Virus record (IMG/VR): IMGVR_UViG_3300009285_002889
Location: 1-35,822 of that record
Origin: a virus
Length of the DNA stretch: 35,822 nucleotides
Reading direction: 5' to 3' (one strand)
Positions 479-35,616 of the stretch are shown one piece after another. The first letter of the stretch is position 1, and each line of letters opens with the position of its first letter. A model generated the notes under the pieces. That model was not told the DNA's origin, did no database searches, and saw only the letters and a program-made list of their open reading frames with translations. A program made the position numbers and the translations under genes.

Positions 479-934
479 ATGTATATTCAAAACATAAATT
501 GGGAAGAAACAGGACTCGAAGTCGGGAAAAGTTATTGGATGTATTTTATTAATGAGTTTGCTATGACGTTAAAAAAACAAATAATAATAACAACTTATAA
601 CATAATTTCCGAATTTGCACAATATCAAAATGTGATTCAGTTAACTTATAAGGAAACAGGGAAAAAAAAAATATCAACAATATTATTAAAATCAAGCATG
701 TTATTTCTAAATACTGAACTTAAGATAGATACTGATTACTCCTCATTTAAAGGAAATGCAAAACTGAATTTCGTATTGGAAACCGATGATTTCCCCGCAG
801 TTTTAAAGGAAAAAATACAAAACGAAAATAAATATAAACTTTTAGATTTGAATCAGGTTAATTATTGTTTTGAAAATAATTTACATGATTCTAACCCATT
901 ATTTAAAAATGAGGAAGCCATAACAACAAAATGA
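479..934 (+). CDS. Unknown 151-residue protein
   Basis: I do not recognise this protein. It is mostly polar, with no membrane segment or cysteine motif. Its middle alternates short hydrophobic stretches (residues about 33-75) that could form a small alpha/beta or beta domain. The start is supported by GAGGT about 7 bases upstream and by the TATA box at 436-446. The stop overlaps the next ATG in ATGA, so the two are probably translated together. It is one of only three plus-strand genes, is read away from the RHH gene, and is likely under that regulator. Confidence 0.65.
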   Translation: MYIQNINWEETGLEVGKSYWMYFINEFAMTLKKQIIITTYNIISEFAQYQNVIQLTYKETGKKKISTILLKSSMLFLNTELKIDTDYSSFKGNAKLNFVLETDDFPAVLKEKIQNENKYKLLDLNQVNYCFENNLHDSNPLFKNEEAITTK

Positions 935-1041
935 GAAAGAAACAATGCTCCCAGTGTAAATCAAAAGACACATATGTAAATCTCGATTATAGAACATCAA
1001 ACGAGTATTTATGTATGAACTGTTATTACAACTTAATTTAA
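931..1041 (+). CDS. Zinc-ribbon mini-protein
   Basis: This 36-residue protein has two CxxC pairs (C6-x2-C9 and C28-x2-C31) about 18 residues apart, the layout of a minimal zinc ribbon. The ATG overlaps the upstream stop by ATGA, which supports translational coupling. Its role is unknown; small zinc ribbons often bind nucleic acid or act as adaptors. The pentamer tract begins immediately after the stop codon. Confidence 0.55.
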   Translation: MRKKQCSQCKSKDTYVNLDYRTSNEYLCMNCYYNLI

Positions 1042-1111
1042 CAGGGCGCGGCACGGCTAGGCAGGGCGAGGCATGGCGCGGCATGGCGTGGCGTGGCATG
1101 GCATGGCATGG
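1042..1111 (+). repeat. Degenerate GGCNN pentamer tract (left)
   Basis: Thirteen consecutive GGCNN units (1045-1109) with varying NN make a sharp GC-rich island in AT-rich DNA. The first 36 bases (1042-1077) are identical to part of the tract at 35617-35771 on the opposite strand. A TATA-plus-GGTGA cassette nearly identical to that of the right tract follows at once. Frames read through it give only low-complexity peptides. Confidence 0.9.
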
Positions 1112-1115
1112 AAAT

Positions 1116-1130
1116 TATAAAATTGGGTGA
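1116..1130 (+). promoter_or_regulatory. TATAAAAT plus GGGTGA cassette
   Basis: TATAAAAT (1116-1123) is followed by GGGTGA (1125-1130), 9 bases before an ATG. The same block, with one or two changes, follows the right-hand pentamer tract on the other strand, so tract and cassette seem to travel as one unit. Confidence 0.5.
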
Positions 1131-1139
1131 TTCACATAC

Positions 1140-1220
1140 ATGAAAAATAAACAAAAGAAAAAACCCGTAAAAACCTATAATCTGGATAGATTGATAGATA
1201 TACGGTTGGGAAATGACTAA
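1140..1220 (+). CDS. Possible 26-residue basic peptide
   Basis: A short ORF begins 9 bases after GGGTGA and encodes a lysine-rich start followed by a short amphipathic stretch (LDRLIDIRLG). It converges on the minus-strand gene ending at 1217 and overlaps its stop by 4 bases. The translation signals are good, but the length makes it uncertain; the cassette upstream may serve another purpose. Confidence 0.3.
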   Translation: MKNKQKKKPVKTYNLDRLIDIRLGND

Positions 1221-3541: not shown

Positions 3542-6500
3542 TCAACTCCGTATACATCCGGTACAGTATGAGTTAAATGCCAAAACCGGATCAAGAAAAT
3601 TAAAATTAGTCTCATTACACGATGTCAGGTTAACACGCATCCATAACCCATAATTGGAATTTAAAGCTATATTTGTCGTAACGTTCTGGTTTGTCGTAGT
3701 GGAAAAATTCAGCCATGTAGGAGTTGTTATAAAATTTGAGGTATTATACAGTGACATGTCCATACAACTCCCGTTTACGGTTTCATTAAATTTAACTACA
3801 ACATCTATTGCTCTATCATAAGCAAGATTCGTTATATTAAATATCGGTACAGTTTCCGACTGTCCGAACGGCTCCAGATTCTTATCGTTCGGTGTTATCG
3901 GGTATATATTCCAGATATCTATTCCTGACGGAAGAGATACGTTAAATATTGAATATTTAACCAATAAATCCCAAAGCGTGCTGTTTATGTTGTAATCGGG
4001 TGTATGCGCCCGGATAGTCATGTTTTTAGAGCCACGATAATCAAACTTTAAATCATTTATAGTTATATTTCCATTACTAAAGTTAAATGCGTATCTTATT
4101 GTATTTGATAATAAATCAAGTATGGATGCATTGAACTCAATTGGGTTTATATTATAGGTATAATTAAAATTATAAATTGTAATTACTCCGGCTATAGCAG
4201 ACTGTATTTGTATCGGAACCATACACGAAATAGAATTTAAACAATTCTCAGAAATATATGAATTGATATCTATTGTTTGCAGTGTTACATTTTGTGGTGA
4301 ATTGGTTTTATTTAGAATATTATTATATTTCCAGTCCCCAACCGCATCTATACCAATTGAAATATTCTCAGTGGAACCTTCTATCACATCAACATAAATT
4401 TTACTGATATATGCTCTATTTGAAGTATTACTATTCGTAATTATAGTGCGCCATTTTAAATCTGTTCCCGGTACAGTTATAGTTTGATCTACTCCTAAGT
4501 TGTCTATATCTGTCCAGTTTACACCATTATTGGAACTTATCTGAAATATAACATTTGTATCTGTATCAATAAAATAATCTGCATTTAATACTGCTGAGGT
4601 AATGTTATTTGTAGTATTTTTTATGCGATTGGAAACGGCAGTTATGTTACTGGAATTATAATTCCCCGTAGTGTTAACATAAGGATAAATTCCGGTTGTA
4701 TTTAAATAAAACATTTCAACAGTTCCATTTCCTCTTACCATTGATGTGCTTTTTGGTGCATTTGTAGTTTCCCAGACAAATTCCCAACTTTGTGCCGGAT
4801 TTAATGCTGAAACAGACGTACTCCCTGAATTTGTCCCAACATCACCGGCAGCACAGGAGTGCGTCATATTAGCCCACCATACCCAATCTACATTAGTATC
4901 TGACGTTTTTGTAATATTAAATTTATATCTCATTTCCCATGGGGCATCTGTAAAATAATAGGTACTATCCAGCCATATACAATCATCTCCTGCGCGCCCA
5001 TTAGGAGAATATTTAATATAAAAATTAAAAATTTCAACAGATGCTGCATCACCTTTCAGGTATGCTTTTAATGTAAAAGTATTGGATGGACTTGTCCCAC
5101 CCGAACTGGCTCTTATAAAACTACCATTTCCATCAACAAATAATGTCCGTATTTTACTAAAGTTAAAATTAGATGTTGTAGTAGATACAACAGCAGATTC
5201 TCCTGCAGCACAACCTGTTGAACTTGTAAATAATTTCATACTATCCTCTGCATTATTTATAGTAGCATTAGCATAAGAAATAAAAGTCCCACAACTAATT
5301 ACACTATTTGTCCATAATTTATTCATGGATTTATCGGCATTTTCAAAGCTATCCCATGATCCTATAAAGTTATTATTAACCATAGAAACTGTTGATGCGG
5401 AAGTATTCAGGTTTGTATTATTACGGAAATCCTCTTCAAAATCCAGAGCACCACCACTGTTAATTGTTGATCCATTTATCTGAAAGGTTAAATTATTTAT
5501 CAGGAATGCATTAGAATTTTTATTTATTTGTTTTGTTGAAACATTCATATAAATCGTTTTAATATCTGCCGCTATATAAGTTAAATCTTCAGATTGTTTA
5601 TAATTGGCAGAACTATAAAACCATAAATTATAAATGTCCGTATTTAGTAATCTCCCCATGTAATAGTTGTTAAGTATGAATTGTGTTCCGTTATAATAAC
5701 TAATACTAATGTTTTCGGGCGTTCCTGCAGAATTGCTAATATTAAATGTAGCATTATATAATTCAGTTCTATTATCAAGAAATACTGCAACTTCTGTATT
5801 AGGCAGGTTTATTCGTGAGGTATTTGTATCATTCAGTCGTGTTTCACGCAATAAATCTATCGGATACTGGAACGTTGATTCCGGAGCTAAACAGGTATAG
5901 TTAATAGTCGGGTTTATATTAATATCAATGTCATAACAAACATAGTTGGAATCGTTATAATATCGAATATTATCAACTAAACTTTGCGGGGGATTTCCTA
6001 CCCCGCTATTATTCCATAATAACCACAGCATATTATTATCAGAAAAACTTCGTACATCAATTGATACATTATACTCAGTTCCGGTTGTACTTTTATTGTA
6101 AACATTAGTATTCCCAATGTTAAACCGAAATGAAACTACTCCTGTTGTAGTTAAGTTTGTATCAAATACAATAAAGGCAATCGGAGTCAGATTAACTGAT
6201 TTATTAGCCCTACAATTAGAACATCCAGCCATAGCTTCCTGAAGTCCTATCGCGGTTACATTCCTGCTTGCCCATCCGGTAAATCTCCCGATTACATTGG
6301 TTAAATCCCAGCCATCAGAATTGATATCGTTTCCTGTTTCGAAGTCATCATAATCATAATCCAAATCAAATACAACCCCGATAGTTGCATTGGTTTCATA
6401 TTCATATAATGTATGGTTTTGCACTCCATTCAAAGTCACATTTAAATATCTTGTAACTGCTGTCCATGTCGGGTCAAGATACCCGTCTTTTGCATTTAAA

Positions 6501-6937
6501 CTCCATTTTACAGTTTCTTCGGGATTAAGTTTTAAACCATACAAAATGAATTTTAGCTGCGTTTTAGAAGGGAAATCCAATGGGGTTTTTTTCGTAAGCT
6601 TCTGTAAATCAAGATAACTATAATCTTCAAAAGTAATATTATTATAACCAATTGTTTTATTTTCTGTATAAATAAACAAATAAAATTCCCTAACCTGTGG
6701 TGTGAATGTAAATTTGATTTCATTCGGATTGTAAATTTTTACATCATATAACTGTGGATTTGTAATGTTAATATAAGAAATACACGGGTCATCATATGTC
6801 CCGGCACAGATATCGTCAGTTCCCGTTATCTGAAAATTAAATGCCAAAATAAATAATGCAAGCAACCCTGTCAACGTTCCACCAATGCCAGCACCAATTT
6901 TTATCCATTTGGCATTTTTACGTTTACGTCTGGTCAT
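3542..6937 (-). CDS. Giant sequon-rich surface protein with N-terminal membrane segment
   Basis: About 1131 residues. A basic N-terminus (TRRKRKNAKW) is followed by one hydrophobic segment (about residues 15-35), then a long beta-rich, Asn/Thr-rich ectodomain with dozens of N-x-S/T sequons and few cysteines, ending in CTGCIRS. This style is common in archaeal surface proteins. Its place between a small tail protein and the hub suggests a tail-tip or receptor-binding role, but a signal/anchor helix is odd for a tail protein. It may instead be displayed on the host surface. I prefer the ATG at 6937 over a TTG two codons earlier. Confidence 0.7.
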   Translation of the reverse strand: MTRRKRKNAKWIKIGAGIGGTLTGLLALFILAFNFQITGTDDICAGTYDDPCISYINITNPQLYDVKIYNPNEIKFTFTPQVREFYLFIYTENKTIGYNNITFEDYSYLDLQKLTKKTPLDFPSKTQLKFILYGLKLNPEETVKWSLNAKDGYLDPTWTAVTRYLNVTLNGVQNHTLYEYETNATIGVVFDLDYDYDDFETGNDINSDGWDLTNVIGRFTGWASRNVTAIGLQEAMAGCSNCRANKSVNLTPIAFIVFDTNLTTTGVVSFRFNIGNTNVYNKSTTGTEYNVSIDVRSFSDNNMLWLLWNNSGVGNPPQSLVDNIRYYNDSNYVCYDIDININPTINYTCLAPESTFQYPIDLLRETRLNDTNTSRINLPNTEVAVFLDNRTELYNATFNISNSAGTPENISISYYNGTQFILNNYYMGRLLNTDIYNLWFYSSANYKQSEDLTYIAADIKTIYMNVSTKQINKNSNAFLINNLTFQINGSTINSGGALDFEEDFRNNTNLNTSASTVSMVNNNFIGSWDSFENADKSMNKLWTNSVISCGTFISYANATINNAEDSMKLFTSSTGCAAGESAVVSTTTSNFNFSKIRTLFVDGNGSFIRASSGGTSPSNTFTLKAYLKGDAASVEIFNFYIKYSPNGRAGDDCIWLDSTYYFTDAPWEMRYKFNITKTSDTNVDWVWWANMTHSCAAGDVGTNSGSTSVSALNPAQSWEFVWETTNAPKSTSMVRGNGTVEMFYLNTTGIYPYVNTTGNYNSSNITAVSNRIKNTTNNITSAVLNADYFIDTDTNVIFQISSNNGVNWTDIDNLGVDQTITVPGTDLKWRTIITNSNTSNRAYISKIYVDVIEGSTENISIGIDAVGDWKYNNILNKTNSPQNVTLQTIDINSYISENCLNSISCMVPIQIQSAIAGVITIYNFNYTYNINPIEFNASILDLLSNTIRYAFNFSNGNITINDLKFDYRGSKNMTIRAHTPDYNINSTLWDLLVKYSIFNVSLPSGIDIWNIYPITPNDKNLEPFGQSETVPIFNITNLAYDRAIDVVVKFNETVNGSCMDMSLYNTSNFITTPTWLNFSTTTNQNVTTNIALNSNYGLWMRVNLTSCNETNFNFLDPVLAFNSYCTGCIRS

Positions 6938-7280
6938 ATTCAATTAACTCCATGTTATATCGTGAAGGTTGGGCGCCTGCATCCGTCCATGTCAGTCTTG
7001 TGATTATATATGATCCGGAGTCTATGCCATCAGTATACTTCTTTTTGGTGCCATCTTCCAATGCTTCTACATCTGTCCGATGCTGGTCTATAGTTTTAGT
7101 CCCGGAACCAATTATAATCCCGTTTGCGGATATTCGTGTCTGATAACTGTTTTTCCCCAGAACAGGAAGTTCTACAACATGTTTCCCTATGACTTGCAGG
7201 TTTACAGATGGCTCTACGTTTTTCTCTATCTGCTCCCAGAATAAATCAACAGACCCCAAAGTTATAGTAGCATATCCCAT
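6924..7280 (-). CDS. Small tail-tip protein
   Basis: This 118-residue beta-rich protein lies directly after the tape measure gene, where distal-tail or baseplate adaptor proteins are usually found. Conserved-looking features are the N-terminal ATITLGSVDL and a C-terminal strand YIITRLTWTD. There is no membrane segment or cysteine. Its 3' end overlaps the giant surface protein gene by 14 bases. A distal-tail or LysM-free baseplate role is inferred from position only. Confidence 0.5.
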   Translation of the reverse strand: MGYATITLGSVDLFWEQIEKNVEPSVNLQVIGKHVVELPVLGKNSYQTRISANGIIIGSGTKTIDQHRTDVEALEDGTKKKYTDGIDSGSYIITRLTWTDAGAQPSRYNMELIEYDQT

Positions 7281-10998: not shown

Positions 10999-11074
10999 TT
11001 AATTCCTCGCTTGGAAATCCTCAAAAAAATAAAAAAAGAGGTGGTTTGAAATGTGGCGAGGATATTTAAGAAAG

Positions 11075-11107
11075 GATTATAATTAAACCTTTCGGAAAAT
11101 TATATAA
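11075..11107 (-). promoter_or_regulatory. Late promoter of the tail unit
   Basis: TTATATAA (11100-11107) is followed by TTTTCCGAAAGGTTTAAT on the minus strand. The same block stands before the protease gene (15946-15955) and a shorter version before the portal gene (21185-21194). Initiation about 25 bases downstream gives a leader of roughly 75 bases to the terminator protein ATG. Confidence 0.6.
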
Positions 11108-11476
11108 TTATGCAACCCCAAACATTCTCATTACGGATTCTGCCCATTCCAAATTGGTTTCCATATATTTACTAATCTGCCCCGTCATCTCAGCAACTTC
11201 TCGATTAATCTCATTTTGAATTACTGCGAGATCGCTTAATTTATCTATGTCTTCAGAATGTTTTGATATGTTTTGTTCTAATTCCCATAGTTTATTATCT
11301 AATTCCAGTTGTTTATTAGCCAGCTTTGTATCAGCTAATATTAACTGTTCTATTTTTAGATTTATTTCTTCCTTATTGTTTTTTTCTTGATTTGAATTAA
11401 ATATATTTAAAACAATGTTAACCATTAACAAAATTATAACACCCATCAAAACCCATCTTAATGTTGTTTCTTTCAT
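11108..11476 (-). CDS. Membrane-anchored coiled-coil protein
   Basis: The 122-residue product has one N-terminal transmembrane helix (about residues 7-27) and then a long coiled coil (about 33-95). It interrupts the connector-to-tail gene series and has its own TATA-like element and AGGTGA before the ATG, so it may be expressed separately. No family is recognised. A role at the host membrane, such as entry, exclusion or lysis control, is possible but unproven. Confidence 0.6.
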   Translation of the reverse strand: MKETTLRWVLMGVIILLMVNIVLNIFNSNQEKNNKEEINLKIEQLILADTKLANKQLELDNKLWELEQNISKHSEDIDKLSDLAVIQNEINREVAEMTGQISKYMETNLEWAESVMRMFGVA

Positions 11477-15902: not shown

Positions 15903-15925
15903 TAAAGACTATTTAAAAACTCTAT

Positions 15926-15955
15926 TCATTTAAACCTTTTGAAAAATTATATAAT
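15926..15955 (-). promoter_or_regulatory. Late promoter of the protease-capsid unit
   Basis: ATTATATAAT (15946-15955), then TTTTCAAAAGGTTTAAAT on the minus strand, sits about 45 bases before the protease ATG. It differs by only a few bases from the block at 11075-11107. Confidence 0.6.
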
Positions 15956-21142: not shown

Positions 21143-21184
21143 TGTTTAATATTGAAAAACCCATTTAAATAAAAGTTACTAAAA

Positions 21185-21194
21185 ATTATATAAT
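21185..21194 (-). promoter_or_regulatory. Late promoter of the portal unit
   Basis: ATTATATAAT is followed by TTTTTAGTAACTTTTATTTAAAT about 45 bases before the portal ATG, in the gap after the terminase stop. It matches the other two late promoters in the TATA block but lacks AAAGGTTTAA. Confidence 0.55.
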
Positions 21195-23943: not shown

Positions 23944-24237
23944 TCATTCCACCTCGCTGGTTTTTTGTTTAAGTTCAACACCTTCTTCCAACTGGATTTT
24001 TAATGCCTGAATCTGCTGCATAAGTGCAGTTAAGTTCTGCGCAGCTTCACGTTTCTTTATTCGGTATTCAGATTGTTGCAACTGGTAATTCATTCGCAGT
24101 CCGGTTGTAAGCATTAATTCTGCATATTGCAATAGATATTTCTGATAGTCTGATTCTTCCTGCATCCTGTTTATAGATTTTTCTATAAAATGCTTTTCTT
24201 CCCCGGTTAGTTCACGTTTTGTCATTTTGAATGGCAT
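23944..24237 (-). CDS. Helical protein with coiled coil
   Basis: The 97-residue product is almost all helix, with a coiled coil over about residues 50-90 (REAAQNLTALMQQIQALKIQ). It overlaps the glycosyltransferase stop by 26 bases; a start at an ATG 12 bases further in (24225) is also possible. It marks the border between the modification island and the packaging genes. Function unknown. Confidence 0.5.
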   Translation of the reverse strand: MPFKMTKRELTGEEKHFIEKSINRMQEESDYQKYLLQYAELMLTTGLRMNYQLQQSEYRIKKREAAQNLTALMQQIQALKIQLEEGVELKQKTSEVE

Positions 24238-25345
24238 TTAATAATTTCTCAGCCGAATGTTTCCATTGCCAGTTATTTATAATTTCCTGCCGACCACGTA
24301 TCCCTTTTCGTTTGCATTCTTCCGGATGTTCATAAGCATAACGCATTAATGTTTTTAAATGATTTAAATTCGGCTTATTCCATGATATACCTTCATATAT
24401 CCAATCGTATTCGACTTCGATAGGTGTCGAATCTATCAACCATCCGTTTTGTTCATTAATAAATTCTGATTGGCCATTGAATTTAGTCGTTATAATAGGC
24501 AAACCACATGATAACGCCTGCGCACAACCTAAACCAAAGGCTTCACCCATTGTCGGACTAATAAAACAATCCCCATTATAAATCAGTGGTAAATCTTTAT
24601 ATAAGATATTATTTGTACTTATATACAACGGTGGACGTTCATTAGGCAGGTTTAATTTTCGTAACTCTGTATGTAAATCCCAACCGGGATGTAAATATGC
24701 TGGATTTATTTTAATGTTAAGTGCAACTTTTTCGTTTGACTTAAATTCTTCACAGTACGCTTTAATTAAGAATTGAACACCCCCCCTGTCATTCATACCG
24801 TGAGCCCAGCCTTTATCTGCTATAAATACAAAACTCTCATTTTGTTTTTCCTGTGGGAGAAATGCATCTATATTAACTCCATGCGGAATTATTATAATTT
24901 TTTTCGATATAAATTCAAAGAAAAGAGGAGGTTTAAACTGTTTACAAGTACTTAATATTGCATCTCTAACATGTTTACTTGGGACAAGAATATTTCTTAT
25001 GTCAAATTTATCCATATCACCTGTTTTAACCATACAATCTATAAAAAATAATGGAACCATATCACCTTCCCATACACAAAAACCATAAAACGCTTTTTGT
25101 GTTCTATGTGAATATAAATCCCAGAACTGAGGCATAGTAATGCATATTGTAATCCCATCATTAAACCATGAAGTACTAATTGCTTTTAATTCATTATCAT
25201 TTATAGCCAATTCCCAACCAAGTGATAAATGTGTTACTAAATGTATATGGGGATTTATCTTATAAAGTGCATTAAATAAACCTCGTGCATGGTTTTGATA
25301 TCCCGAACTTCCTAAAATATCCCCTATAAAATTAATTGGTATCAT
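24212..25345 (-). CDS. GT4-type glycosyltransferase
   Basis: This 377-residue GT-B enzyme resembles retaining GT4 transferases: a Gly-rich N-terminal loop (GDILGSSGYQNHARG), the linker IIPHGVNIDAF near residue 153, and the donor-binding stretch PTMGEAFGLGCAQALSCGLP near 265-283. The usual E-x7-E motif reads E268-x7-Q276, so the second glutamate is replaced. It is the last gene of the island and overlaps the E1-like gene by 14 bases. The sugar and acceptor are unknown. Confidence 0.8.
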   Translation of the reverse strand: MIPINFIGDILGSSGYQNHARGLFNALYKINPHIHLVTHLSLGWELAINDNELKAISTSWFNDGITICITMPQFWDLYSHRTQKAFYGFCVWEGDMVPLFFIDCMVKTGDMDKFDIRNILVPSKHVRDAILSTCKQFKPPLFFEFISKKIIIIPHGVNIDAFLPQEKQNESFVFIADKGWAHGMNDRGGVQFLIKAYCEEFKSNEKVALNIKINPAYLHPGWDLHTELRKLNLPNERPPLYISTNNILYKDLPLIYNGDCFISPTMGEAFGLGCAQALSCGLPIITTKFNGQSEFINEQNGWLIDSTPIEVEYDWIYEGISWNKPNLNHLKTLMRYAYEHPEECKRKGIRGRQEIINNWQWKHSAEKLLNAIQNDKT

Positions 25346-26003
25346 TCTTTATTTTACTTTTTATGAAATTATAATCATTAAAATCACAGGATATAATCTC
25401 TGAATATGGCTCGTTATTTAAAACTTTTTTAAATTGTTCAATCATTACAGCCGATACAGCATAAACATTTTGTATTATCCCTTTTTCTGAACATGCACCT
25501 ATATGTCCTTCACCTAACATGCTTTTTATATATTGTTTTACAAGTTTTATATTTCCCATGTTAATAGTATAAACTGAAAAAATCAAAGCATGCATTCTTC
25601 CATCTATGATTAATTTTGGATTTCCCGTTTTTTCATAACTTGATAATGCTGCATACATTATATGCCTTCTCGATTTTAAAGAATCAACACAAATAAATAA
25701 GACCTCAACATTCATTTCTGTCCGGGGATTAACTTTAGAATGTAAAATATTAATATTATTTGAAAATAAAAAATGCTGAATTGCATTAGTTTTATTATAA
25801 TCAATATGTTCTTGAAGATATAGTTGTGTATGGATATTGTGTTTTTCAATCTTATCAAAATCCGCAAGAACAAAATTATTAAAACCTATTTTATTTAAAC
25901 CAAAGGTAACAAAACTGCCAATACTACCTAAACCAACAATACCTATCTTTAAATAATTAAATAATTTAACATCCAAAATCCCGGTTTGATTGCGAAAATC
26001 CAT
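25332..26003 (-). CDS. ThiF/E1-type adenylating enzyme
   Basis: Residues 18-115 form a Rossmann domain with G24-x-G-x-x-G29, acidic ADFD (Asp48, Asp50), N56-x3-Q60, K71 and C-V-D107, the ATP/Mg signature of E1 and ThiF/MoeB proteins that adenylate the C-terminal glycine of a ubiquitin-like partner. The arginine normal in NxxRQ is Thr59. The MoeB-type zinc cysteines are absent. Cys171 (GACSEKG) is the main thiol candidate, although it aligns with a structural position in ThiF. At 223 residues it is minimal. Its ATG overlaps the JAB stop (TAATG). Confidence 0.85.
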   Translation of the reverse strand: MDFRNQTGILDVKLFNYLKIGIVGLGSIGSFVTFGLNKIGFNNFVLADFDKIEKHNIHTQLYLQEHIDYNKTNAIQHFLFSNNINILHSKVNPRTEMNVEVLFICVDSLKSRRHIMYAALSSYEKTGNPKLIIDGRMHALIFSVYTINMGNIKLVKQYIKSMLGEGHIGACSEKGIIQNVYAVSAVMIEQFKKVLNNEPYSEIISCDFNDYNFIKSKIKNDTN

Positions 26004-26419
26004 TATTTTACAAAATTATTTAAATCAATTTCAAAAGATTTTTTTATTTCAAATTGTCTCTTTTCATTTAATATTGTATATATATACAATAACTTCCTGT
26101 TTTGCTGCAATATTAAGGAATAACATTCCCCCCAAAAATTAGTTAGATCTATCATAGTGTTTTTATCCATTGAACTATATCCATTTATAGGATGTTTATG
26201 AAACCAACCTTTAATAAACCCAAATTTAGTTTCATGTTTTAATAATTTATTTATCCCTAATAAAACATATCCAAAATCACTAAATTTTACATCAATAATC
26301 AAATCAGATATAATATTATTTTCTATTATTAAATATCCCCCAAATTCTTTATTTTCAAAATCAGATTCATTTTCCAGTATTTTTTTTATAACATCTATTT
26401 TAATTAGCAATCTTTCCAT
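26003..26419 (-). CDS. JAB/JAMM metalloprotease
   Basis: This 138-residue protein carries the zinc-protease motif: Glu25 (KEFGGYL), then GWF-H74-K-H76-P, Ser82 and Asp85, near the E...HxH...SxxD consensus, with a 5-residue rather than the common 7-residue gap between His76 and Ser82. JAB enzymes remove or trim ubiquitin-like proteins at Gly-Gly. It overlaps the ubiquitin-like gene by 16 bases and the E1-like gene by one, so all three are tightly coupled. It probably cuts the fusion protein after Gly70 and may also reverse conjugation. Confidence 0.85.
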   Translation of the reverse strand: MERLLIKIDVIKKILENESDFENKEFGGYLIIENNIISDLIIDVKFSDFGYVLLGINKLLKHETKFGFIKGWFHKHPINGYSSMDKNTMIDLTNFWGECYSLILQQNRKLLYIYTILNEKRQFEIKKSFEIDLNNFVK

Positions 26420-27141
26420 TTTCTATACCCATTAGAATCGTCTTTTGATTGTAAAACTGCACAAACTAATTCAAGACATCCAAGAAAATTTTTCGATAAA
26501 AAAAAAGCATTATATCCTTCAAGATTTGCACCCATACAAAGATAATGCGGAGATTTGAATGCGATAAATGGATTATCCCATTCGTCTTTTAATATATTAA
26601 TTCGTCTTGCAATAGGGTTTTTATCTAACCGAATATAATATTTCCCTTTATCCCCTAAATTTACCTTAAATTCTCTTTTTTCAAAATCAATTATTTGTTT
26701 AACAATAGATAATGAAGCAATTAAATGTTTTTGATCGTTTAATGAATTTAAAGGTATATTAACTTTAAATAACCCCCCATTATCTACTAATGAAACAAAT
26801 CGCAAGTCCTCTGAACATACTAAATCTTTTTTTATGTTATTATTTCCAATTCTATTTCGAGGTGTGTAACTATTAATAACATCCGGTAGTATATCAGTTT
26901 CACTACTAATACTACCAATTGAATTAAAACTACCACCCTGTATTCGTGGAATAACTGTAACATTAGTTTTTACAACATGTGTATCTTCCAGTTTATTTCC
27001 ATCAGGATCTACAACATTTAACTCTAAATTAGACAAACCTAATAAATTTTTTAAATCATTTATTGTTTGCCCTTTTTCAAGAGTTACTTCTTCTCTTTGT
27101 TTTCCCATTTGATTTACCTGAATCTTTATTTTATCTGCCAT
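26404..27141 (-). CDS. Ubiquitin-like domain fused to probable E2-like domain
   Basis: Residues 3-70 form a beta-grasp, ubiquitin-like unit: strand KIKIQVNQ, strand EEVTLEKG, helix TINDLKNLLG, strand LELNVVDPDGNKL and final strand VTVIPRIQGG, with Gly69-Gly70 exactly at the domain end. After a polar linker, residues about 108-245 contain strands, then NPFIAFKSPHYLCMG (190-204) and two helices. This resembles E2 folds, with Cys202 as the candidate active cysteine. I chose the ATG at 27141, after GAGGTGG. The ubiquitin-like part is firm; the E2-like part is inference. Confidence 0.7.
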   Translation of the reverse strand: MADKIKIQVNQMGKQREEVTLEKGQTINDLKNLLGLSNLELNVVDPDGNKLEDTHVVKTNVTVIPRIQGGSFNSIGSISSETDILPDVINSYTPRNRIGNNNIKKDLVCSEDLRFVSLVDNGGLFKVNIPLNSLNDQKHLIASLSIVKQIIDFEKREFKVNLGDKGKYYIRLDKNPIARRINILKDEWDNPFIAFKSPHYLCMGANLEGYNAFFLSKNFLGCLELVCAVLQSKDDSNGYRKWKDC

Positions 27142-27159
27142 ATATTCCCACCTCATTAT

Positions 27160-28077
27160 TCATAATTCATTGCAATATATTAAATTTGTATTTTTATACA
27201 AACTCCTAAGTTTATCCTGTTCGGTTTCTTTTATGCCTAAACGTTCATGGTAGTCTTCAATAAAATCTCCGTGTTTTTGATACATTCGTTTTGTCCACCG
27301 GTTTAATAATATCTGGTTTTGTTTGTTTAACTCGTCTTTATTTGTACGCCTATCCCCACCAGAAGGCGTACATAAATGCCATGCTACTGCACCAGTATCC
27401 ACGCCTAATTTATATCCTTTTAATATGGCATGAAATGAAAAGAACTGCTCCTCACGAAACCCGGAAGGTGTTAAGGTCTCTTCATATTTTACAGTCTCAT
27501 GAACTTCTCTTTTTATTAATGCACAGCTCCGAAAATGGTCTGTCGGCAGAATGTCTGAACCAATATAAGTCTGTCCACAATCATCACAATTAATTAAAAA
27601 TGTCCCGTCTGCATTTAATACAACACGATTTATTATAGGCAATATGAATTTCATGTCACGCGGGGTTTCAGGATTTAATATTGGGGGAGTAACCCCAGAC
27701 ATCAAATCATATCCCCGTATAATTCCCTTATATAAAAAAGCCAAATAATTAGGATTGAGAATCACGTCATCATCCAGTCTGCAAAATAAGTCTCCAGTCC
27801 CGTTTTTAAGAACATAATCCACCAACATTTGTCTGTCCATTGCAACACCCCGGCTTTTATCTGCATGAATTATTTCTAAATTATGCTGTTCAAATTTCAT
27901 GCGCTGAATTAAACACTGCAAAAAATAATACGTTTCTGGCGGAGTTCCCGAACAACAATCTAAGATATATACATCAAAATCCTGATATGTCTGAGTACGT
28001 AAAGATTGCAGTAATAATCCCAATTCTGTCGGGCGATCTTTATAATTAATCAAAATATCAATTTTCATTTTTACCAT
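27160..28077 (-). CDS. GT2-type glycosyltransferase
   Basis: This 305-residue GT-A enzyme starts IDILINYKDRPTELG, with a DDD metal/nucleotide motif at 102-104 (CRLDDDVILN) and a C-terminal catalytic-base region (SGFREEQFFSFHAILKG, VAWHL). No membrane segments, so it is a soluble transferase. An ATG at 28068 is a possible alternative start. It follows the sugar dehydrogenase by a short overlap and precedes the ubiquitin-like gene. Donor and acceptor are unknown. Confidence 0.82.
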   Translation of the reverse strand: MVKMKIDILINYKDRPTELGLLLQSLRTQTYQDFDVYILDCCSGTPPETYYFLQCLIQRMKFEQHNLEIIHADKSRGVAMDRQMLVDYVLKNGTGDLFCRLDDDVILNPNYLAFLYKGIIRGYDLMSGVTPPILNPETPRDMKFILPIINRVVLNADGTFLINCDDCGQTYIGSDILPTDHFRSCALIKREVHETVKYEETLTPSGFREEQFFSFHAILKGYKLGVDTGAVAWHLCTPSGGDRRTNKDELNKQNQILLNRWTKRMYQKHGDFIEDYHERLGIKETEQDKLRSLYKNTNLIYCNEL

Positions 28078-29183
28078 ACATTTATAACAGTTATATCCTC
28101 AGGAAATAATTGATCCATTGGCATCATTATAACTACCAATTTTGCATCTTTTAATTCGTCAGAATATACAAAATATCCCATTGATTCGAGTTGTTCTTTT
28201 AACCGTATTGCCGGACTTTCAAAGGTATAAATTGTATGAGGAGAATATGATTTACCAAAGATTGCCACTTTATTTTTTAAAATGTTTTCCGGTTCTAAAT
28301 GTAATAACACCTTTTGTAAAATGCTCTGATAAACCGCTTCATTAATCTCATCTGTAAGCTTACAATAGTTTAAAACCCCATACGAATCCAAAACCAAACT
28401 AAATGCTTTATTATCTCTTGGGAAACACGGCCCGGCATACGGTGCCCCGGGCTTAAAATACCGGTTATTAATACGTGAATCTATACCGATAATATCTGCA
28501 ATTTGTTTTGCATCTGTATTATTTATTTTTTCACATAACAAATTAAGCATATTCGCAAAGCTTATCTTCATTGTAATATACGAATTAAGTGCAATCTTGG
28601 AAATTTCTGCATTTGCCCAGTTTGTACGTTTTATCTGTGCATTATTTTGCAATACCCGACAATATATAGTTTCAAGCAAATCCCCGGCAGATTTATCTTC
28701 TTCTCCTATCAGAACAAAATCAGGATTTTCTATGCCATAGATCACATTTCCAAGAGCAATAAATTCTGGATTATAACATAAAGAAATATTATCAGGCAGT
28801 TCACCTTTTAATTCCGGATAACTCCCCGGCATTACTGTACTATTAACAACAAATACTTTACAGTGTTTCATATAATAATATGCTGACCTTATAGCATCTA
28901 TAATATACTCATTCGAGAACATACCCGAATCCAGACTCGGTGTCGGCACAACACAAAATATAATTTCACAGTCCTGTAAATTGGAAAAAGAAGAACTAAT
29001 CATTAACTGGTTATCACCTTCCAAAAGTTCCTTTAAATACGGTTCAAGATAAGATATATTATAATTTAAAAGAGATTTTATTAATTTCTTATCTATGTCT
29101 ATTCCCTTGACGTTATAATGTTTAGATAAAACTGCAGCCAGACATAATCCTAATTTTCCCAAACCTATAACTCCAATTTCCAT
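28071..29183 (-). CDS. UDP-glucose/GDP-mannose 6-dehydrogenase
   Basis: This 370-residue enzyme oxidises the C6 of a nucleotide sugar to a uronic acid with NAD. It has the N-terminal GxGxxG (IGVIGLGKLGLCLA), E-ISKIALNSY (Lys196, Asn200) and catalytic Cys253 in GAPYAGPCFPRDNKAF, followed by a short C-terminal Rossmann half. UDP-glucose and GDP-mannose enzymes cannot be separated here by eye; the neighbouring GDP-mannose epimerase favours GDP-mannose. It lies 2 bases after the GT2 gene upstream. Confidence 0.85.
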   Translation of the reverse strand: MEIGVIGLGKLGLCLAAVLSKHYNVKGIDIDKKLIKSLLNYNISYLEPYLKELLEGDNQLMISSSFSNLQDCEIIFCVVPTPSLDSGMFSNEYIIDAIRSAYYYMKHCKVFVVNSTVMPGSYPELKGELPDNISLCYNPEFIALGNVIYGIENPDFVLIGEEDKSAGDLLETIYCRVLQNNAQIKRTNWANAEISKIALNSYITMKISFANMLNLLCEKINNTDAKQIADIIGIDSRINNRYFKPGAPYAGPCFPRDNKAFSLVLDSYGVLNYCKLTDEINEAVYQSILQKVLLHLEPENILKNKVAIFGKSYSPHTIYTFESPAIRLKEQLESMGYFVYSDELKDAKLVVIMMPMDQLFPEDITVINVW

Positions 29184-29185
29184 TT

Positions 29186-29884
29186 TTAGTCTTTTATAAA
29201 CCCGAATTTTTTCCTGAAATATAACGCATTTTTTTGTTTTATATCCTCCAAATCATTTTGGTGTTCAGTCAATCTATGGTGATCTACCCAGAATGGTGCA
29301 GCAAAAATATGTAATTTTGCCTGAATTACACGGTAAGTAAAATCAATATCGTCTCCGGGACCGGGAGAATATGCTTCATCAAATTTACCTATTTTATTAA
29401 TGGTTTCCCGTGGAATAAACATACTCCATGTTCCGCACCACGGAAAACCTTTTAGATATTCTTCACCTGCAATTCCACCAGCGCCAAACGTTGTAACTAA
29501 ACCACAATTATCATTTTCTGCTGTTCTTTTCAATAAATAAATCCAGTCGTAATTATATAACTTAAAATGAATCACGTCATCCTGTGTAAGATATACATCC
29601 ATATCCCCGGCTTTATCTATTCCAAAATTAATTGCCATAGTTATACCCTTTTTTGGAATATGGTATGTCTGGATTATATCCGGATACCGTTGTACATAAC
29701 CATCACAAACCAAATCCGTTCCATCAGTAGATTCAGATTCTATCAAAAAAAGCTTAATAGGATAACTTATACTTTCAAGAATGCTATCTATCGCATACCT
29801 AAGATGCCTTCCACTATTATAACAAGGCAAAATAATCGCTATTGGCTTTATTTTGTCTTCTGTACTATCTGTTGTTCGACCCAT
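29186..29884 (-). CDS. GT2-type glycosyltransferase
   Basis: This 232-residue GT-A enzyme has IIPLC-like start AIILPCYNSGRHL, a Q-D102-D103 motif (YLTQDDVIH), PGPGDDIDFTYRV as the likely base region and VDHHRLTE near the end. The first 12 residues overlap the epimerase gene in another frame, so the true start may be slightly later. Within the island it probably adds one sugar of a surface glycan. Confidence 0.8.
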   Translation of the reverse strand: MGRTTDSTEDKIKPIAIILPCYNSGRHLRYAIDSILESISYPIKLFLIESESTDGTDLVCDGYVQRYPDIIQTYHIPKKGITMAINFGIDKAGDMDVYLTQDDVIHFKLYNYDWIYLLKRTAENDNCGLVTTFGAGGIAGEEYLKGFPWCGTWSMFIPRETINKIGKFDEAYSPGPGDDIDFTYRVIQAKLHIFAAPFWVDHHRLTEHQNDLEDIKQKNALYFRKKFGFIKD

Positions 29885-30825
29885 TTATATGTTGATTTTA
29901 ACCCTTTTTCTAATGTGATTTTTGGTTCCCAGTTATATAATCCTCTAAATAATGAATTATCTGAATTTCTTGATAGTACACCAATCGGGCCCGCAATATA
30001 ATTATAATCCGGGCTTATTTTAGCAATACTACAAATTAAATCCGCTAACTGTCTTATACTAACCATTTCATCCCGGCCTAAATTAACCGGCCAGCTATAA
30101 AAACCCCTCATTATTAATTCCAGTCCCGTTACACAGTCATCAATATAGCAATAACTTCGGGTTTGTGTACCGTCACCCCATATCGAAATAAACGGTTCAT
30201 TATGTAATTTGGCAGCTGCAACTTTCCGGCATAATGCTGCAGGAGACTTTTCTTTCCCGCCGTCATACGTTCCTTCCGGGCCGTATATATTATGAAACCG
30301 CACAATCCTGCAATCAAGACCGGATTCCAATAATAACTCTTCTGAAAACAACTTTTCAGAACCATACGAATCCTGCGGCTGCGCCGGATATGCATCAGAC
30401 TCCATTAATGGAGAAATGTTATCTTTTCCCTGTTTATATTCCGGATAGATACATGCTGATGATGAAAATAAGAATTTCTTAACATTGCATTTACGCGCGG
30501 CTTCGATCATATTCAGATTAATTAAACTATTATTCCTGCGGATGGAATACTGATTTCCAGTTGGCGAAATATAACCTATCCCACCCATATCTGCCGCTAA
30601 ATGATAAACCTCATCAAGTGGTTGGCCTTTTACTGCATTACAAACCATTAATGCATCTAAAGAACGCCGTAAATCTACCAGACGAAACTCATTCAGGTTA
30701 GTACCATATTCCAATGGTTTTATATCTACGCCTTTCACATAATGTCCCTGTGCAGATAAATGATTAGCTAAATGATGCCCGATAAACCCGGATACTCCCG
30801 TTATAAGGATATTTTTCTTATCCAT
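29848..30825 (-). CDS. GDP-mannose 3,5-epimerase-like enzyme
   Basis: This short-chain dehydrogenase family enzyme (325 residues) has the NAD motif GVSGFIG and hallmarks of GDP-mannose 3,5-epimerases: HLAADMGGIGYIS, SSSACIYPE with the catalytic Cys, Tyr-x3-Lys in SYGSEK, RFHNIYGPEGT, EKSPAALCRK and WGDGTQTRS. The closest known activity converts GDP-mannose to GDP-L-galactose/gulose. GAGG before the ATG at 30825 decides the start over a TTG at 30840. It overlaps the FkbM gene by 8 bases. Confidence 0.85.
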   Translation of the reverse strand: MDKKNILITGVSGFIGHHLANHLSAQGHYVKGVDIKPLEYGTNLNEFRLVDLRRSLDALMVCNAVKGQPLDEVYHLAADMGGIGYISPTGNQYSIRRNNSLINLNMIEAARKCNVKKFLFSSSACIYPEYKQGKDNISPLMESDAYPAQPQDSYGSEKLFSEELLLESGLDCRIVRFHNIYGPEGTYDGGKEKSPAALCRKVAAAKLHNEPFISIWGDGTQTRSYCYIDDCVTGLELIMRGFYSWPVNLGRDEMVSIRQLADLICSIAKISPDYNYIAGPIGVLSRNSDNSLFRGLYNWEPKITLEKGLKSTYKWVEQQIVQKTK

Positions 30826-31372
30826 TCTTTGGCCTCGCAATAAGATTCAGGTTATCTATTATTTCAATCGAATAGCCCCAGTCTTCCAATATCTGTTTTA
30901 CATTAGGAGTATGATTATATTCAATTATAATAATGGGTTTATGTTCTATTATTGTTTCTTTTGCACCAAGCAAAACTTTATCAGAAGTCGTTTCAGCATC
31001 TATTTTAATTATTTTTATATTCAGAATTCCTTTAAAAAACTCATCAATGGTTGTCGTAGTTCTATCTGATTGTTCTACAATTTCGATATCGTCCATTCCT
31101 CTAATAGTTTCATGTTCTTTTATTTTATAAGGCAATGATTTATCGTATAACGCACGATGGATGGGAATAACACAAATAATCCCGTCAGATATAATTCTAT
31201 TATAAAGTATACTATAATTCCTGTCTGAAGGCTCAAATGCAAAACAAAACCCATCAAGAAACAATTCAACTGTATCCCCAATACATGCACCTACGTCTAT
31301 ATAAATATCTGGATCTTTTAACTTCTGTAATTCCCTACCTAATATTTCATAAGTTTTATCCTCTTCACCCAT
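30818..31372 (-). CDS. FkbM-type methyltransferase
   Basis: This 184-residue SAM-dependent methyltransferase has motif I IDVGACIGDTVELF, FEPSDRNYSIL and the family-typical TTTTIDEFF, IKIIKIDAET and KPIIIIEYNH. FkbM enzymes usually O-methylate sugars. GGTGA 5 bases before the ATG at 31372 favours that start over a GTG three codons earlier. It overlaps both neighbours, fitting sugar methylation within the same pathway. Confidence 0.85.
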   Translation of the reverse strand: MGEEDKTYEILGRELQKLKDPDIYIDVGACIGDTVELFLDGFCFAFEPSDRNYSILYNRIISDGIICVIPIHRALYDKSLPYKIKEHETIRGMDDIEIVEQSDRTTTTIDEFFKGILNIKIIKIDAETTSDKVLLGAKETIIEHKPIIIIEYNHTPNVKQILEDWGYSIEIIDNLNLIARPKNG

Positions 31373-32606
31373 TCTTTTCACCTATCAATAATTGATTAAC
31401 ATATAACCAGTTAGATGGTGCATCTGAAATTTTGAAACCGTATACTTCAAATATTTCAATCCATTCCGATTTAGTTTTATATAATTTATGTGATTTATCT
31501 GCCATGAGGTTAGGATCACCTATAAACGGGATAGAAAAAATAAACCTTTTCCCATATTTTAATATGTTCATTAAAGTCCTGTCTAATTGTTCTTCATCTA
31601 AATGTTCTAATATGTCTATTGCAGTAATTAAATCCCATTGCCCCCAATCTGCATTCATATCTGAAATATCTCCCTGTTCTATGTTTGGGCAAAATGCATT
31701 ATTTATTGCATATTGACTTAATTCTATTCCTTTTGTTTTATTTACAAACCATTGCCAGAAATAAAGGAATGGCCCTTTCCCGCACCCAAGATCAAGTACA
31801 CTTTCAGGCTTGAAAAAATCATGCCATTGTTTAACCATTATGGGATGTTTTAGTTCAATATTTCTATTCCTAAAATATATCTCATCTTTATTTATTAAAA
31901 ATTCATTTAATATTGACTTTGGCAATTCCATAATATCAAACTGTTTCCTGGGATAACTTCCTGTTAAATGCGCAAGATACCATTCTCTCAGATATTTAGG
32001 TGTATGCATATTACTTTTTTTTAAATGATTTTCATATCGTTTCTTAATATCCCATATAAAACTACAATATGCCAAATGCCAGATAACGGTACAATCAGTG
32101 TTACCCTTAACATTCCCCTGCAATACGGGATGTTCTACTTCCAAATACCCGGATGCCTCGCTTATCTTAAATAACCTATTCAGAACCCAATGTTTGTCAA
32201 CTGTTGTATCTTCGTGTGCCAAATCATTAATTAAATGCCGCATGTGAACTGAATATATTCCTTCTTCTTCAATCTGAATAAATGTCTTTATTTTAGATAA
32301 ATCATCAACTACTTCATCTGCATCAAGACATAACGCCCATTCCTCAGGATAGTTTTCTTTTAAATATGAAAGATAAAAATTCCTTTGTTTCCCATTCATT
32401 CCTAAATCATTTTGATTATAATTATGATAGATTAATTCAAATTTAGAACGATATTTATCGTTCCATTTATAGAACTTATTTAATGTATCCTGATCTTCCA
32501 TTCCCCAACAAAAGATAATCTTATCTGCTTCCAAAACTGATTCAAAACATATATCCAAAAACTTACTGCAATTATCACCCATTACACAAACTATTAATTT
32601 ATTCAT
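31365..32606 (-). CDS. GT2 glycosyltransferase fused to a methyltransferase
   Basis: Residues 1-230 form a GT2 domain with LDADEVV (Asp95, Asp97) and a probable acceptor region EHPVLQG. Residues about 250-413 form a class I methyltransferase with VLDLGCGKGPF (270-280), ITAIDILEHLD and a C-terminal sheet. The fusion suggests that one polypeptide adds a sugar and methylates it or a neighbour. No ribosome site is clear before its ATG. Confidence 0.85.
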   Translation of the reverse strand: MNKLIVCVMGDNCSKFLDICFESVLEADKIIFCWGMEDQDTLNKFYKWNDKYRSKFELIYHNYNQNDLGMNGKQRNFYLSYLKENYPEEWALCLDADEVVDDLSKIKTFIQIEEEGIYSVHMRHLINDLAHEDTTVDKHWVLNRLFKISEASGYLEVEHPVLQGNVKGNTDCTVIWHLAYCSFIWDIKKRYENHLKKSNMHTPKYLREWYLAHLTGSYPRKQFDIMELPKSILNEFLINKDEIYFRNRNIELKHPIMVKQWHDFFKPESVLDLGCGKGPFLYFWQWFVNKTKGIELSQYAINNAFCPNIEQGDISDMNADWGQWDLITAIDILEHLDEEQLDRTLMNILKYGKRFIFSIPFIGDPNLMADKSHKLYKTKSEWIEIFEVYGFKISDAPSNWLYVNQLLIGEKNG

Positions 32607-32632
32607 TTTTGTATTAATTTATTGATTATCGT

Positions 32633-32872
32633 TTAATTCTCTCCCTTTTTAAGACTCTCTATAATATTATTTAATATTAATTGAAATGCCTCTAATTTAT
32701 TCATACTATAATCTCCCGGATTTATTAAATAATACGCCCCTACATTTCCATACCCTTCTTTTTTACTTTCTTTAGATAATAATAAAAAAATGCCTTCTAT
32801 TTCGATATCATCTTCTACATATTTTTTTTTTATTAATTCAATATTCTCTTCAAATTGTTCTTTATTTTTCAC
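32633..32872 (-). CDS. Unknown 79-residue acidic protein
   Basis: The protein has an N-terminal helix (about 3-20), strands around IEIEGIFLLL and VGAYYLIN, and a C-terminal helix (about 60-75), suggesting a small alpha/beta domain. It starts with GTG, and GTGA overlaps the upstream stop by 4 bases. No family is recognised. It is probably co-translated with the gene at 32869. Confidence 0.5.
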   Translation of the reverse strand: MKNKEQFEENIELIKKKYVEDDIEIEGIFLLLSKESKKEGYGNVGAYYLINPGDYSMNKLEAFQLILNNIIESLKKGEN

Positions 32873-33015
32873 TTCTTTTTTTTACTATTTCTCCATTGCG
32901 ACATACAAATAACAACGGCCTGTTTCTGCGGCGTTCCTTCCTTCCTTAAAAATTTTATACATCTCTGTACAAATTCTCCCTGTTTTTCCTTATCTTCCGG
33001 TATTGGTACTGGCAT
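32869..33015 (-). CDS. Small phage-type protein
   Basis: This 48-residue protein, starting MPVPIPEDKEKQGEFVQRC and ending in a Lys run, resembles the short proteins with a conserved FVxRC and CxxxW pattern found near head genes of tailed phages. GAGGTGA gives a strong start. It overlaps the radical SAM gene by 26 bases. Finding it inside the modification island rather than beside the portal is a little unusual. Confidence 0.6.
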   Translation of the reverse strand: MPVPIPEDKEKQGEFVQRCIKFLRKEGTPQKQAVVICMSQWRNSKKKK

Positions 33016-34318
33016 TTTGTTCACCTCTGTTTTTTAATTTAATTAACATCTCCAGCCATAATGACTTTATCTGATTTCTATCCAACCCCCCGCTTTTTGA
33101 ATAATCAATATAACATGTCAACTTTTCATTGTCTGCACGGCATTGCGCTACGTCCCAGTTATTTGCAATGATTTCGTCTTCGAATATCTCGCATCCATAC
33201 TTATCCCTGTTAATCCATAATAACGTACTGGGGAATGGCGCCAACATATACCAGCTAACATTATCAACATAATGTTGTAACATAAACTGTAAACTTTGTT
33301 CTTCCGTTTCCCGTGAACAGCCTGGCAAACCCGTAATCATGTATGTCAATACTTTCATGCCTGCACTTTTGATTTTTCTGATGCCTTCGCTGTTTTGTTC
33401 AACCGTCATACCTTTATCACTTAGCTTTAAAATTTCGTTAGAACCGCTTTCAGTACCAATGCAAACTTCGATGCATCCGCTCTCTGCAAGCTTATCTGCC
33501 AGTTCAGGACACCGTTTAAAATCAGATGCCCTCGTAGTACATCTGTATGTAAAACCTTTACCTTTGAGTAATTCAGCGATTTTAACTACACGCTTCGTAT
33601 CTATAGTGAAAACGTCATCGTATATAATAAACGAATCTATCCCATAATTAAACCTTACTGCTTCCATCTCGATTAAAACTTTCTCAGGACTGTACGCACG
33701 AAAGCTCCCGTTTAAAATTGGTTCACTACAAAATACACAATGATATGGACATCCTTTACTCGTCATCAGACACGTAGCAGGTTTACCATTCATCTTTAAG
33801 GAATATTGCCCCATAGATACAAGTTCCCGTGCTGGCTGCGGTTGCCAGTCGAGGTTCTTAGCTCTGGATACCGGGACACTATAGATAATACGTTCCTGTG
33901 GAAACCCTTCTTTGCATATTGATTCCAGCGCCAGTTCTCCATCTCCAATAACAACATAATCAAATAACATGTATGGCATTACGTCTGATACAGATTTGAC
34001 ATGAACCATTGCAGTTGGATGCGCCCCGCCGGCTATAACCGGGATCTGCCGAAAATGATTTTTTATAAATCCTGCAGTCATAACAGCTTCATAATATTGG
34101 GGGGTAGTTAAACTTATCCCGATTATATCCGGTCTAAATTCTTCAATATAATTTTTTAATATAAAATCATTACAATGGTTCATGTCTATAACCCTTGGCT
34201 CTGCTGCATTTGTCTGCATCAACCATGATGCCAGATATAACGTCCCCAGAGACGGCCTGTCTCCTCCATTACGAAGCCATGGATCTGCAACGTTTATTAA
34301 AAGGATTTTCGGTTTCAT
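32990..34318 (-). CDS. B12-binding-type radical SAM enzyme
   Basis: The 442-residue protein has an N-terminal Rossmann-like domain of the B12-binding type (about 1-140; GGAHPTA, VIGDGE) and a radical SAM core with Cys190-x3-Cys194-x2-Cys197 (GCPYHCVFC) that binds a 4Fe-4S cluster. The usual B12 ligand motif DxHxxG is not obvious, so the cobalamin may be bound without it or lost. Such enzymes methylate or rearrange unreactive carbons, often in sugars or natural products. Its ATG overlaps the GT4 stop by ATGA. Confidence 0.88.
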   Translation of the reverse strand: MKPKILLINVADPWLRNGGDRPSLGTLYLASWLMQTNAAEPRVIDMNHCNDFILKNYIEEFRPDIIGISLTTPQYYEAVMTAGFIKNHFRQIPVIAGGAHPTAMVHVKSVSDVMPYMLFDYVVIGDGELALESICKEGFPQERIIYSVPVSRAKNLDWQPQPARELVSMGQYSLKMNGKPATCLMTSKGCPYHCVFCSEPILNGSFRAYSPEKVLIEMEAVRFNYGIDSFIIYDDVFTIDTKRVVKIAELLKGKGFTYRCTTRASDFKRCPELADKLAESGCIEVCIGTESGSNEILKLSDKGMTVEQNSEGIRKIKSAGMKVLTYMITGLPGCSRETEEQSLQFMLQHYVDNVSWYMLAPFPSTLLWINRDKYGCEIFEDEIIANNWDVAQCRADNEKLTCYIDYSKSGGLDRNQIKSLWLEMLIKLKNRGEQNASTNTGR

Positions 34319-35592
34319 GATTTAATTTTTTGCAATAACTCTTTCCATTGTGGGTGCACTACTAAATTTGAATAAAATTTTATAACTTTTTCCCTGCCGG
34401 TTTCACCAAAGTCCCGCCTTAATCCCGGATCGCAGTATAAAATATTTAACGCTTCTACACATTTAGGTATTGACATTATGCCACGTTCTACAGTCCATGA
34501 ACCTGTTATAGTTCCTTTATCAAAAACTTTATCAATTTCTAAAAAATTATGCATATTATCATATGAACTTTTCTCAACTTCTACAATCGGGACAGAAATC
34601 CCACATTGACCATTTTCCATGATAAGTTCCTGCGTTGTAGTAAAATCAGTAATTACAACCGGGATTTTACATGCCATTGCTTCAATGGTACATATCCCGA
34701 AACCTTCTCCAGAACTACTACTGAGATATATATCTTGTAGATTATATATCTCATTCATAATGTTCCGTTCTATATTTTCAAAGTATCGTATCGGAGAAAA
34801 TACAACACGATTTTCAATATTTAACCTTTTAATTAATTGTCGTATATCAAAAACCGCCGCAGAATCATAAATATCAAGATGTACATAAAGCAAAGCATCA
34901 GGTTTATCCTTGCAAAATAAAGAAAAGGATTTAATTGCCCTGTCGTGCATTTTCCTGCCCTGATTCCTGCCAACAATACCTACGATAAATCTATCTTTTA
35001 AAAGACCTTTAACAAATGTCCCGCTAACAGTCATAACAACTAAATTTTGTTTTAATTTGTTCTTTTCAAAATCAGATAACGGAAAGAACGCATTAATATC
35101 AATGGAATGTGGAATATACAGTAAATCCAGATTATAATAATCTTTAGCTTGTTTCTGTGCAAACTTCGACATTGCAACCACTGTATTAAAATGCTTCAGA
35201 ACCAATTCACATCCGTTCGGATATCCGCCGGTACCGTCACTTGGTACATATAAAATTGAATGCGCCGGACTAAAGTTCATATCAAGAATCCAAGGGTATA
35301 ACATGAAACTATCCAAGAGACATGTAAAGAAATCAGGCTGTAACCTCTGAATTCTCGGTAAAATCAAGTCACGACAATAATCTTCCCTCCCCCGGCCATG
35401 CAACCAAAACTTTAGTTCTGAGCCATCCTGAAACTTTATACCATGCGGAGGTAATATCTGGCCTAAATAATTTGAGCCCTGATAGTGTACTTCATAATCA
35501 TTACTAAGAAAGTTCATTAACTCCTTACTTATCGTACTATATCCTGTATTTGTTAAGGGGGAATCTGACAAATGCAAAATTTTTTGTTTAAT
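34315..35592 (-). CDS. GT4-type glycosyltransferase, first gene of the island
   Basis: This GT-B enzyme of about 425 residues begins KILHLSDSPLTNTGYST, a typical GT4 acceptor loop, has IVGRNQGRK in the second domain and a complete E-x7-E motif in SSSGEGFGICTIEAM. The canonical-looking start codons are poor: the frame offers TTG at 35577, but GGGGTGA is placed for an ATT at 35592, which also restores the expected lysine-isoleucine start. It is expressed from the cassette after the right pentamer tract and overlaps the radical SAM gene by ATGA. Confidence 0.82.
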   Translation of the reverse strand: MKQKILHLSDSPLTNTGYSTISKELMNFLSNDYEVHYQGSNYLGQILPPHGIKFQDGSELKFWLHGRGREDYCRDLILPRIQRLQPDFFTCLLDSFMLYPWILDMNFSPAHSILYVPSDGTGGYPNGCELVLKHFNTVVAMSKFAQKQAKDYYNLDLLYIPHSIDINAFFPLSDFEKNKLKQNLVVMTVSGTFVKGLLKDRFIVGIVGRNQGRKMHDRAIKSFSLFCKDKPDALLYVHLDIYDSAAVFDIRQLIKRLNIENRVVFSPIRYFENIERNIMNEIYNLQDIYLSSSSGEGFGICTIEAMACKIPVVITDFTTTQELIMENGQCGISVPIVEVEKSSYDNMHNFLEIDKVFDKGTITGSWTVERGIMSIPKCVEALNILYCDPGLRRDFGETGREKVIKFYSNLVVHPQWKELLQKIKS

Positions 35593-35612: not shown

Positions 35613-35616
35613 ATTC

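Follow-up and report, generated by a model that had tools for sequence, protein, structure and literature searches.

Two intergenic tracts of GGY-NN pentamers lie near the two ends of the IMG/VR virus record IMGVR_UViG_3300009285_002889 (35,822 bases, classed as linear; the whole record is hereafter called the window), and comparison of their letters with published loci makes it very likely that both are vrRNA genes of a VIPR-type system in a head-tailed and probably archaeal virus. VIPR (Viral Interference Programmable Repeat) was presented in a 2026 preprint as a CRISPR-like system directed by viruses against viruses, with two kinds of parts, the small RAMP protein Vipr and the vrRNAs (PMC13142463). 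A vrRNA is an RNA of ~100 nt, bound by Vipr, with 9–16 YNNGG units in which GGY is fixed and NN is hypervariable, followed by an invariable 3′ tail that in the SUSP1 clade forms a pseudoknot; its DNA target is read as NNxNNx, with one base skipped, mostly the codon wobble position (PMC13142463). VIPR serves to repress rival phages and satellites, and it has been proposed that CRISPR effectors may descend from it (PMC13142463). The literature searched contained no further paper with both VIPR and vrRNA, and GGCNN appeared there in unrelated papers only.

Architecture of the two tracts

The left tract, vrRNA-L (positions 1045–1111, plus strand), consists of 13 consecutive GGC-NN units and a closing GG, the count given in a preliminary description of this DNA, with the NN pairs in the order GC, AC, TA, AG, GA, AT, GC, AT, GT, GT, AT, AT, AT. 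The right tract, vrRNA-R (35617–35768, minus strand), has 30 units, 27 GGC and 3 GGT, and may hold a single long guide or overlapping guides. Elsewhere in the window GGY-NN units never form runs of four or more, and five-unit GGCNN matches number 26, against 0 in each of 100 dinucleotide-preserving shuffles. The third base, taken earlier to be strictly C, is instead a pyrimidine: all 43 units obey GGY (40 C, 3 T), GGA and GGG never occur, and the GGT units of the right tract are what such a rule leads one to expect. The NN positions, by comparison, vary, with 7 distinct pairs in the 13 left units, 12 in the 30 right units and 12 types overall. Rfam gave no matches in the window or in four GGCNN tract loci.

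The two tracts share a core of 36 bases, at 1042–1077 on the plus strand and, as an inverted copy, at 35636–35671, so that 7 NN pairs are common to both; this identity, which had also been reported before, ends at 36 bases (37 fails), and the NN order diverges beyond it. A seven-pair core followed by divergence looks as if recombination between tracts had rebuilt the guides. Between the right tract and the nearer contig end lie 54 bases, and the left tract starts 1,044 bases from the other end.

Both tracts close with GGCATGG and continue into a common AT-rich block, AATTATAAAAT, whose two occurrences in the window are both directly after the tracts. On the left, the tail AAATTATAAAATT (1112–1130, plus strand) leads into GGGTGA at 1125–1130, the cassette there reading AAATTATAAAATTGGGTGA; on the right, the tail GAATTATAAAATC (35597–35616, minus strand) leads into GGGGTGA, with the cassette GAATTATAAAATCGGGGTGA running from 35616 to 35597. 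The 16 bases 3′ of the two tracts are 88% identical, as opposed to 44% for the 16 bases 5′. The near-identity of the blocks after the tracts, claimed at the outset, holds, but their GGGTGA part is probably the Shine–Dalgarno sequence of the downstream gene, since GGTGA precedes 8 of 42 listed starts at a distance of no more than 25 nt, where ~0.6 would be expected. The constant tail is seen in two copies, and part of their likeness may stem from the ribosome site; we infer its role as a vrRNA tail from the VIPR paper and from the second copy. Read in this way, each tract resolves into a fixed GGY scaffold, a variable NN payload and a constant tail that follows.

The left tail is immediately followed by a 26-aa ORF (1140–1220, plus strand) and the right tail by a glycosyltransferase gene (34315–35577, minus strand) with an annotated TTG start, for which a start nearer the GGTGA is possible. 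In single-sequence folding, which leaves pseudoknots outside the model, the two tail copies share no common stable fold. A search of viral contigs for the tail pattern with GGGTGA, which fits the left copy (the right has an extra G), gave no match. A relaxed pattern gave 1 viral and 9 genome matches that we attribute to chance, as none follows a run of five or more GGY units. The promoter-like AAARGTTTA beside vrRNA-R occurs 5 times in the window against 2.6 expected, which is not above chance.

GGCNN tracts and the Vipr family

A search of host and related viral contigs for GGCNN tracts with the cassette had been proposed; a blind IMG/VR scan with seven GGCNN units alone returned at least 119 virus stretches, mostly with the tracts beside one gene family. 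The 119 stretches listed hold 269 tracts of at least six units. When the third base was allowed to vary and eight or more units were required, and after 10 runs with less than 80% pyrimidine had been dropped, 275 tracts in 112 of 120 sources (the 119 listed and the window) carry C at the third base 2,984 times, T 229 times, A 40 times and G 19 times. Tracts of 8 to 42 units are present in this sample.

The reference for the gene family was Escherichia phage SUSP1 (KT454805), which, similar to the window, has GGY-NN tracts next to small genes on a single strand; its tracts are mostly GGT, whereas those of the window are mostly GGC, and it encodes vipr and vap1 between the tracts, whereas the window shows no vipr. 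The SUSP1 Vipr gene, chosen by its position between GGY tracts, corresponds to PHROG 4652. A profile built from its homologues within the listed tract loci finds 84 ORFs in 83 of the 119 listed stretches, and a search of the whole records of the remaining 36 adds 5 more (one a 36-aa piece at a contig end), bringing the total to 88 of 119; 18 control loci fetched for other reasons (123 kb) contain none. In the listed vipr loci, 213 of 220 tracts lie on the vipr strand at a median distance of 221 nt, 157 of them downstream and 56 upstream of the gene. A second profile, from 45 of the 68 near-full-length Vipr proteins of the listed loci, recovers the SUSP1 Vipr chain of known structure, 36pp, at 4.2e-42. 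The AF2 model of the family has a pLDDT of 96.9, and all 50 of the Foldseek matches listed for it are CRISPR type III or VII effector chains; as modelled, the tract-associated protein family folds like Cas7 RAMPs. From the frequency of vipr in these stretches, its strand and distance bias and its RAMP fold, we conclude that GGCNN tracts of this kind mark VIPR loci.

The remaining 31 of the 119 listed stretches have no detectable vipr in the whole record. Diverse tracts are present in 23 of them and low-diversity pentamer repeats alone in 8, so the GGCNN scan also picks up simple repeats. The 23 with diverse tracts may represent orphan guides, fragments or other Vipr types missed by the SUSP1-derived profile. 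They include a 105-kb record (L019) and a tract that lies within a cassette for sugar biosynthesis resembling that next to vrRNA-R (L057); in the latter stretch (L057:3618–5024) the GGCNN tract lies 21 nt ahead of a radical SAM gene with 26% identity to that of the window. An alternative Vipr type was sought as a shared neighbour family in the vipr-less loci, with no convincing candidate, the two largest clusters being translations of the tracts themselves. In four listed stretches (L043, L109, L032 and L115), GGY-NN tracts follow each other head-to-tail with a short constant spacer (CACCGCA in L043), forming multi-guide arrays.

Set against published vrRNAs, the window tracts have the same GGY scaffold, free NN, constant 3′ tail, intergenic position and viral setting. 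The left tract, with 13 units, falls inside the range of 9–16, and the right tract, with 30, lies above it. The SUSP1 tail is a pseudoknot, whereas the window tail is short, AT-rich and runs into a ribosome site. Also unlike published VIPR, the window record has no detectable Vipr and its two guides share a core. By analogy, the tracts would resemble CRISPR class 1 crRNAs, guides in which a variable portion is joined to a constant handle, for use by Cas7-like RAMPs, but in the tracts scaffold and variable letters alternate with a period of 5 nt, and we noticed no repeat-spacer array.

Viral setting, partner protein and targets

The window encodes terminase, portal, protease, capsid and tail proteins, and no replication genes were recognised among the window proteins scanned, which together with the linear class indicates that the record is probably a genome fragment. 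The host is likely archaeal, on the basis of a SAMP2 match below threshold in one viral protein and of the terminase and portal matches, which include haloarchaeal viruses amid bacterial ones. Relatives of the terminase comprise one 4.4-kb contig, without a GGY-NN tract. vrRNA-R sits immediately ahead of a sugar-modification block (24212–35577, minus strand) with several glycosyltransferases, an epimerase, a UDP-glucose/GDP-mannose dehydrogenase, a B12-binding radical SAM protein and a methyltransferase. Within 25332–27156 on the minus strand there is a possible ubiquitin-like cassette, with a ThiF/E1-like protein (PF00899, 8e-15), a 138-aa protein that resembles a JAB peptidase by eye and matches nothing in Pfam, and a third protein whose N terminus is SAMP2-like (1.2e-4, below the cut-off) and which has no matches in phage records. 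Three AT-rich intergenic repeats, 65–76% alike (11063–11108, 15910–15955 and 21149–21194), lie 5′ of minus-strand genes and look by eye like archaeal BRE/TATA promoters. An N- and T-rich protein of 1,133 aa (3542–6943, minus strand) has no Pfam match.

Searches of the window for Vipr were negative at each level: the best profile E value over 684 ORFs is 4.6, PHROG 4652 has no match at E values up to 10, the 45-protein profile finds nothing in the record, and hhalign over 83 ORFs gives probabilities of at most 2.4%. The window thus has no detectable vipr near a tract, where a complete VIPR locus would have one; the profile descends from SUSP1 only, so divergent Vipr types could escape it. The usual vipr position, ~110 nt upstream of the left tract, is taken by a 151-aa ORF (479–934, plus strand) with no relatives and no detectable RAMP similarity. 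We regard it as a positional candidate only; its PDB sequence matches are at chance level and its alignment-free AF2 model (pLDDT 35) is uninformative. Between it and the tract, immediately 5′ of the latter, lies a 36-aa ORF (931–1041, plus strand) with two CxxC pairs, zinc-ribbon-like by eye; the small ORFs beside the left tract, considered as possible vap accessory genes, have no relatives among the listed tract loci.

Since the tracts lie near both contig ends, the partner Vipr is most likely encoded beyond them, in the missing part of the genome; or else it is too divergent to detect or supplied in trans. That the tracts are orphan guides, vrRNA genes of a virus with no Vipr of its own that are served by the Vipr of the host, a resident provirus or a co-infecting rival, strikes us as unlikely though credible; 23 of the 119 listed stretches likewise combine diverse tracts with no detectable Vipr in the whole record.

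Read as the first two letters of codons, the left guide spells A-T-Y-(S/R)-(D/E)-I-A-I-V-V-I-I-I (AT also stands for M). Three IMG/VR scans with 8-unit gapped patterns returned 9, 9 and 15 stretches and no convincing target: in units outside the scan pattern, agreement was at chance level, with 2–4 of 12 for the left guide and at most half of the letters for the right one. Against the window itself, with skips of 0–3 and the tracts set aside, no skip stands out, and ten-unit guide windows (220 of 284 tested, the 284 being 294 minus 10 of low diversity) show no clear excess at any skip in 1.1 Mb of tract loci. Codon positions 1–2 are the phase that suits the NN letters best in 76 of 99 usable sources, both strands counted, whereas 100 rounds of letter shuffling gave ~57 on average and never more than 72. 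In the window, the sense phase 1–2 comes first of six with a lead of 3.8 log units; a lead at least this large arose in 3 letter shuffles and 5 uniform shuffles out of 100 each. The codon-phase signal is indirect and suggestive, short of proof, and weak for the window alone.

Competing readings and implications

Of the three explanations first offered for the tracts, a structured regulatory element came nearest, although a pair of vrRNA genes explains them better. A promoter or 5′-UTR element, with TATAAAAT as TATA box, GGTGA as ribosome site and the tract as a binding array, accounts for the way in which both tails run directly into a Shine–Dalgarno-like GGTGA and a gene, and many other listed tracts precede a ribosome site and start codon. 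Archaeal transcription, however, starts ~25 nt downstream of the TATA box, so a TATA box this near to GGTGA would probably leave the GGTGA untranscribed, and the GGY rule, the free NN positions and the link to a RAMP gene would go unexplained; we consider this reading improbable. A spreading promoter-linked repeat, another of the initial suggestions, is not supported either, as the units carry different NN letters and, where the listed GGCNN stretches allow a comparison, each virus has a tail of its own. A second role of the tract as leader of the next gene is possible.

The inverted copies near both contig ends, with their 36 identical bases, had also suggested that an element of ~34.7 kb has its terminal repeats or recombination ends here, and tracts on both strands occur in just 2 of the 120 sampled sources, one of them the window (most of the others are shorter than 15 kb). 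The copies, however, are unequal (13 versus 30 units) and differ in NN order outside the core, their similarity stops at tract and tail with outer flanks 44% identical, the left copy has 1,041 bases with viral ORFs on its outer side, and in the listed loci such tracts mostly adjoin vipr on the vipr strand, which together make element ends a highly improbable reading. An origin by slippage growth of a simple pentamer repeat, or by an error of assembly, finds a parallel in the low-diversity repeats of some vipr-less loci, but slippage yields uniform units, whereas the window tracts hold 7 and 12 distinct NN pairs with the third base kept as C or T, and its probability is close to nil.

Under the preferred reading, as a pair of vrRNA genes, the tracts would be transcribed as guide RNA, as in the published system (PMC13142463). 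Vipr subunits, being RAMPs, would grip the GGY triplets of the transcript and leave the NN pairs exposed; the complex would then recognise DNA in the pattern NNxNNxNN, the skipped base falling mostly on the codon wobble position, and repress genes of a competing element.

A scan from sequence alone, begun from the RNA side, thus arrives independently at the VIPR link, with the tracts predicting a Cas7-like RAMP neighbour in most listed stretches. The window would be an unusual member of this class in that its two guides share a core and one counts 30 units, its tail is short and AT-rich, and no Vipr is visible. It makes it testable whether guides are used in trans by viruses and how new ones originate.
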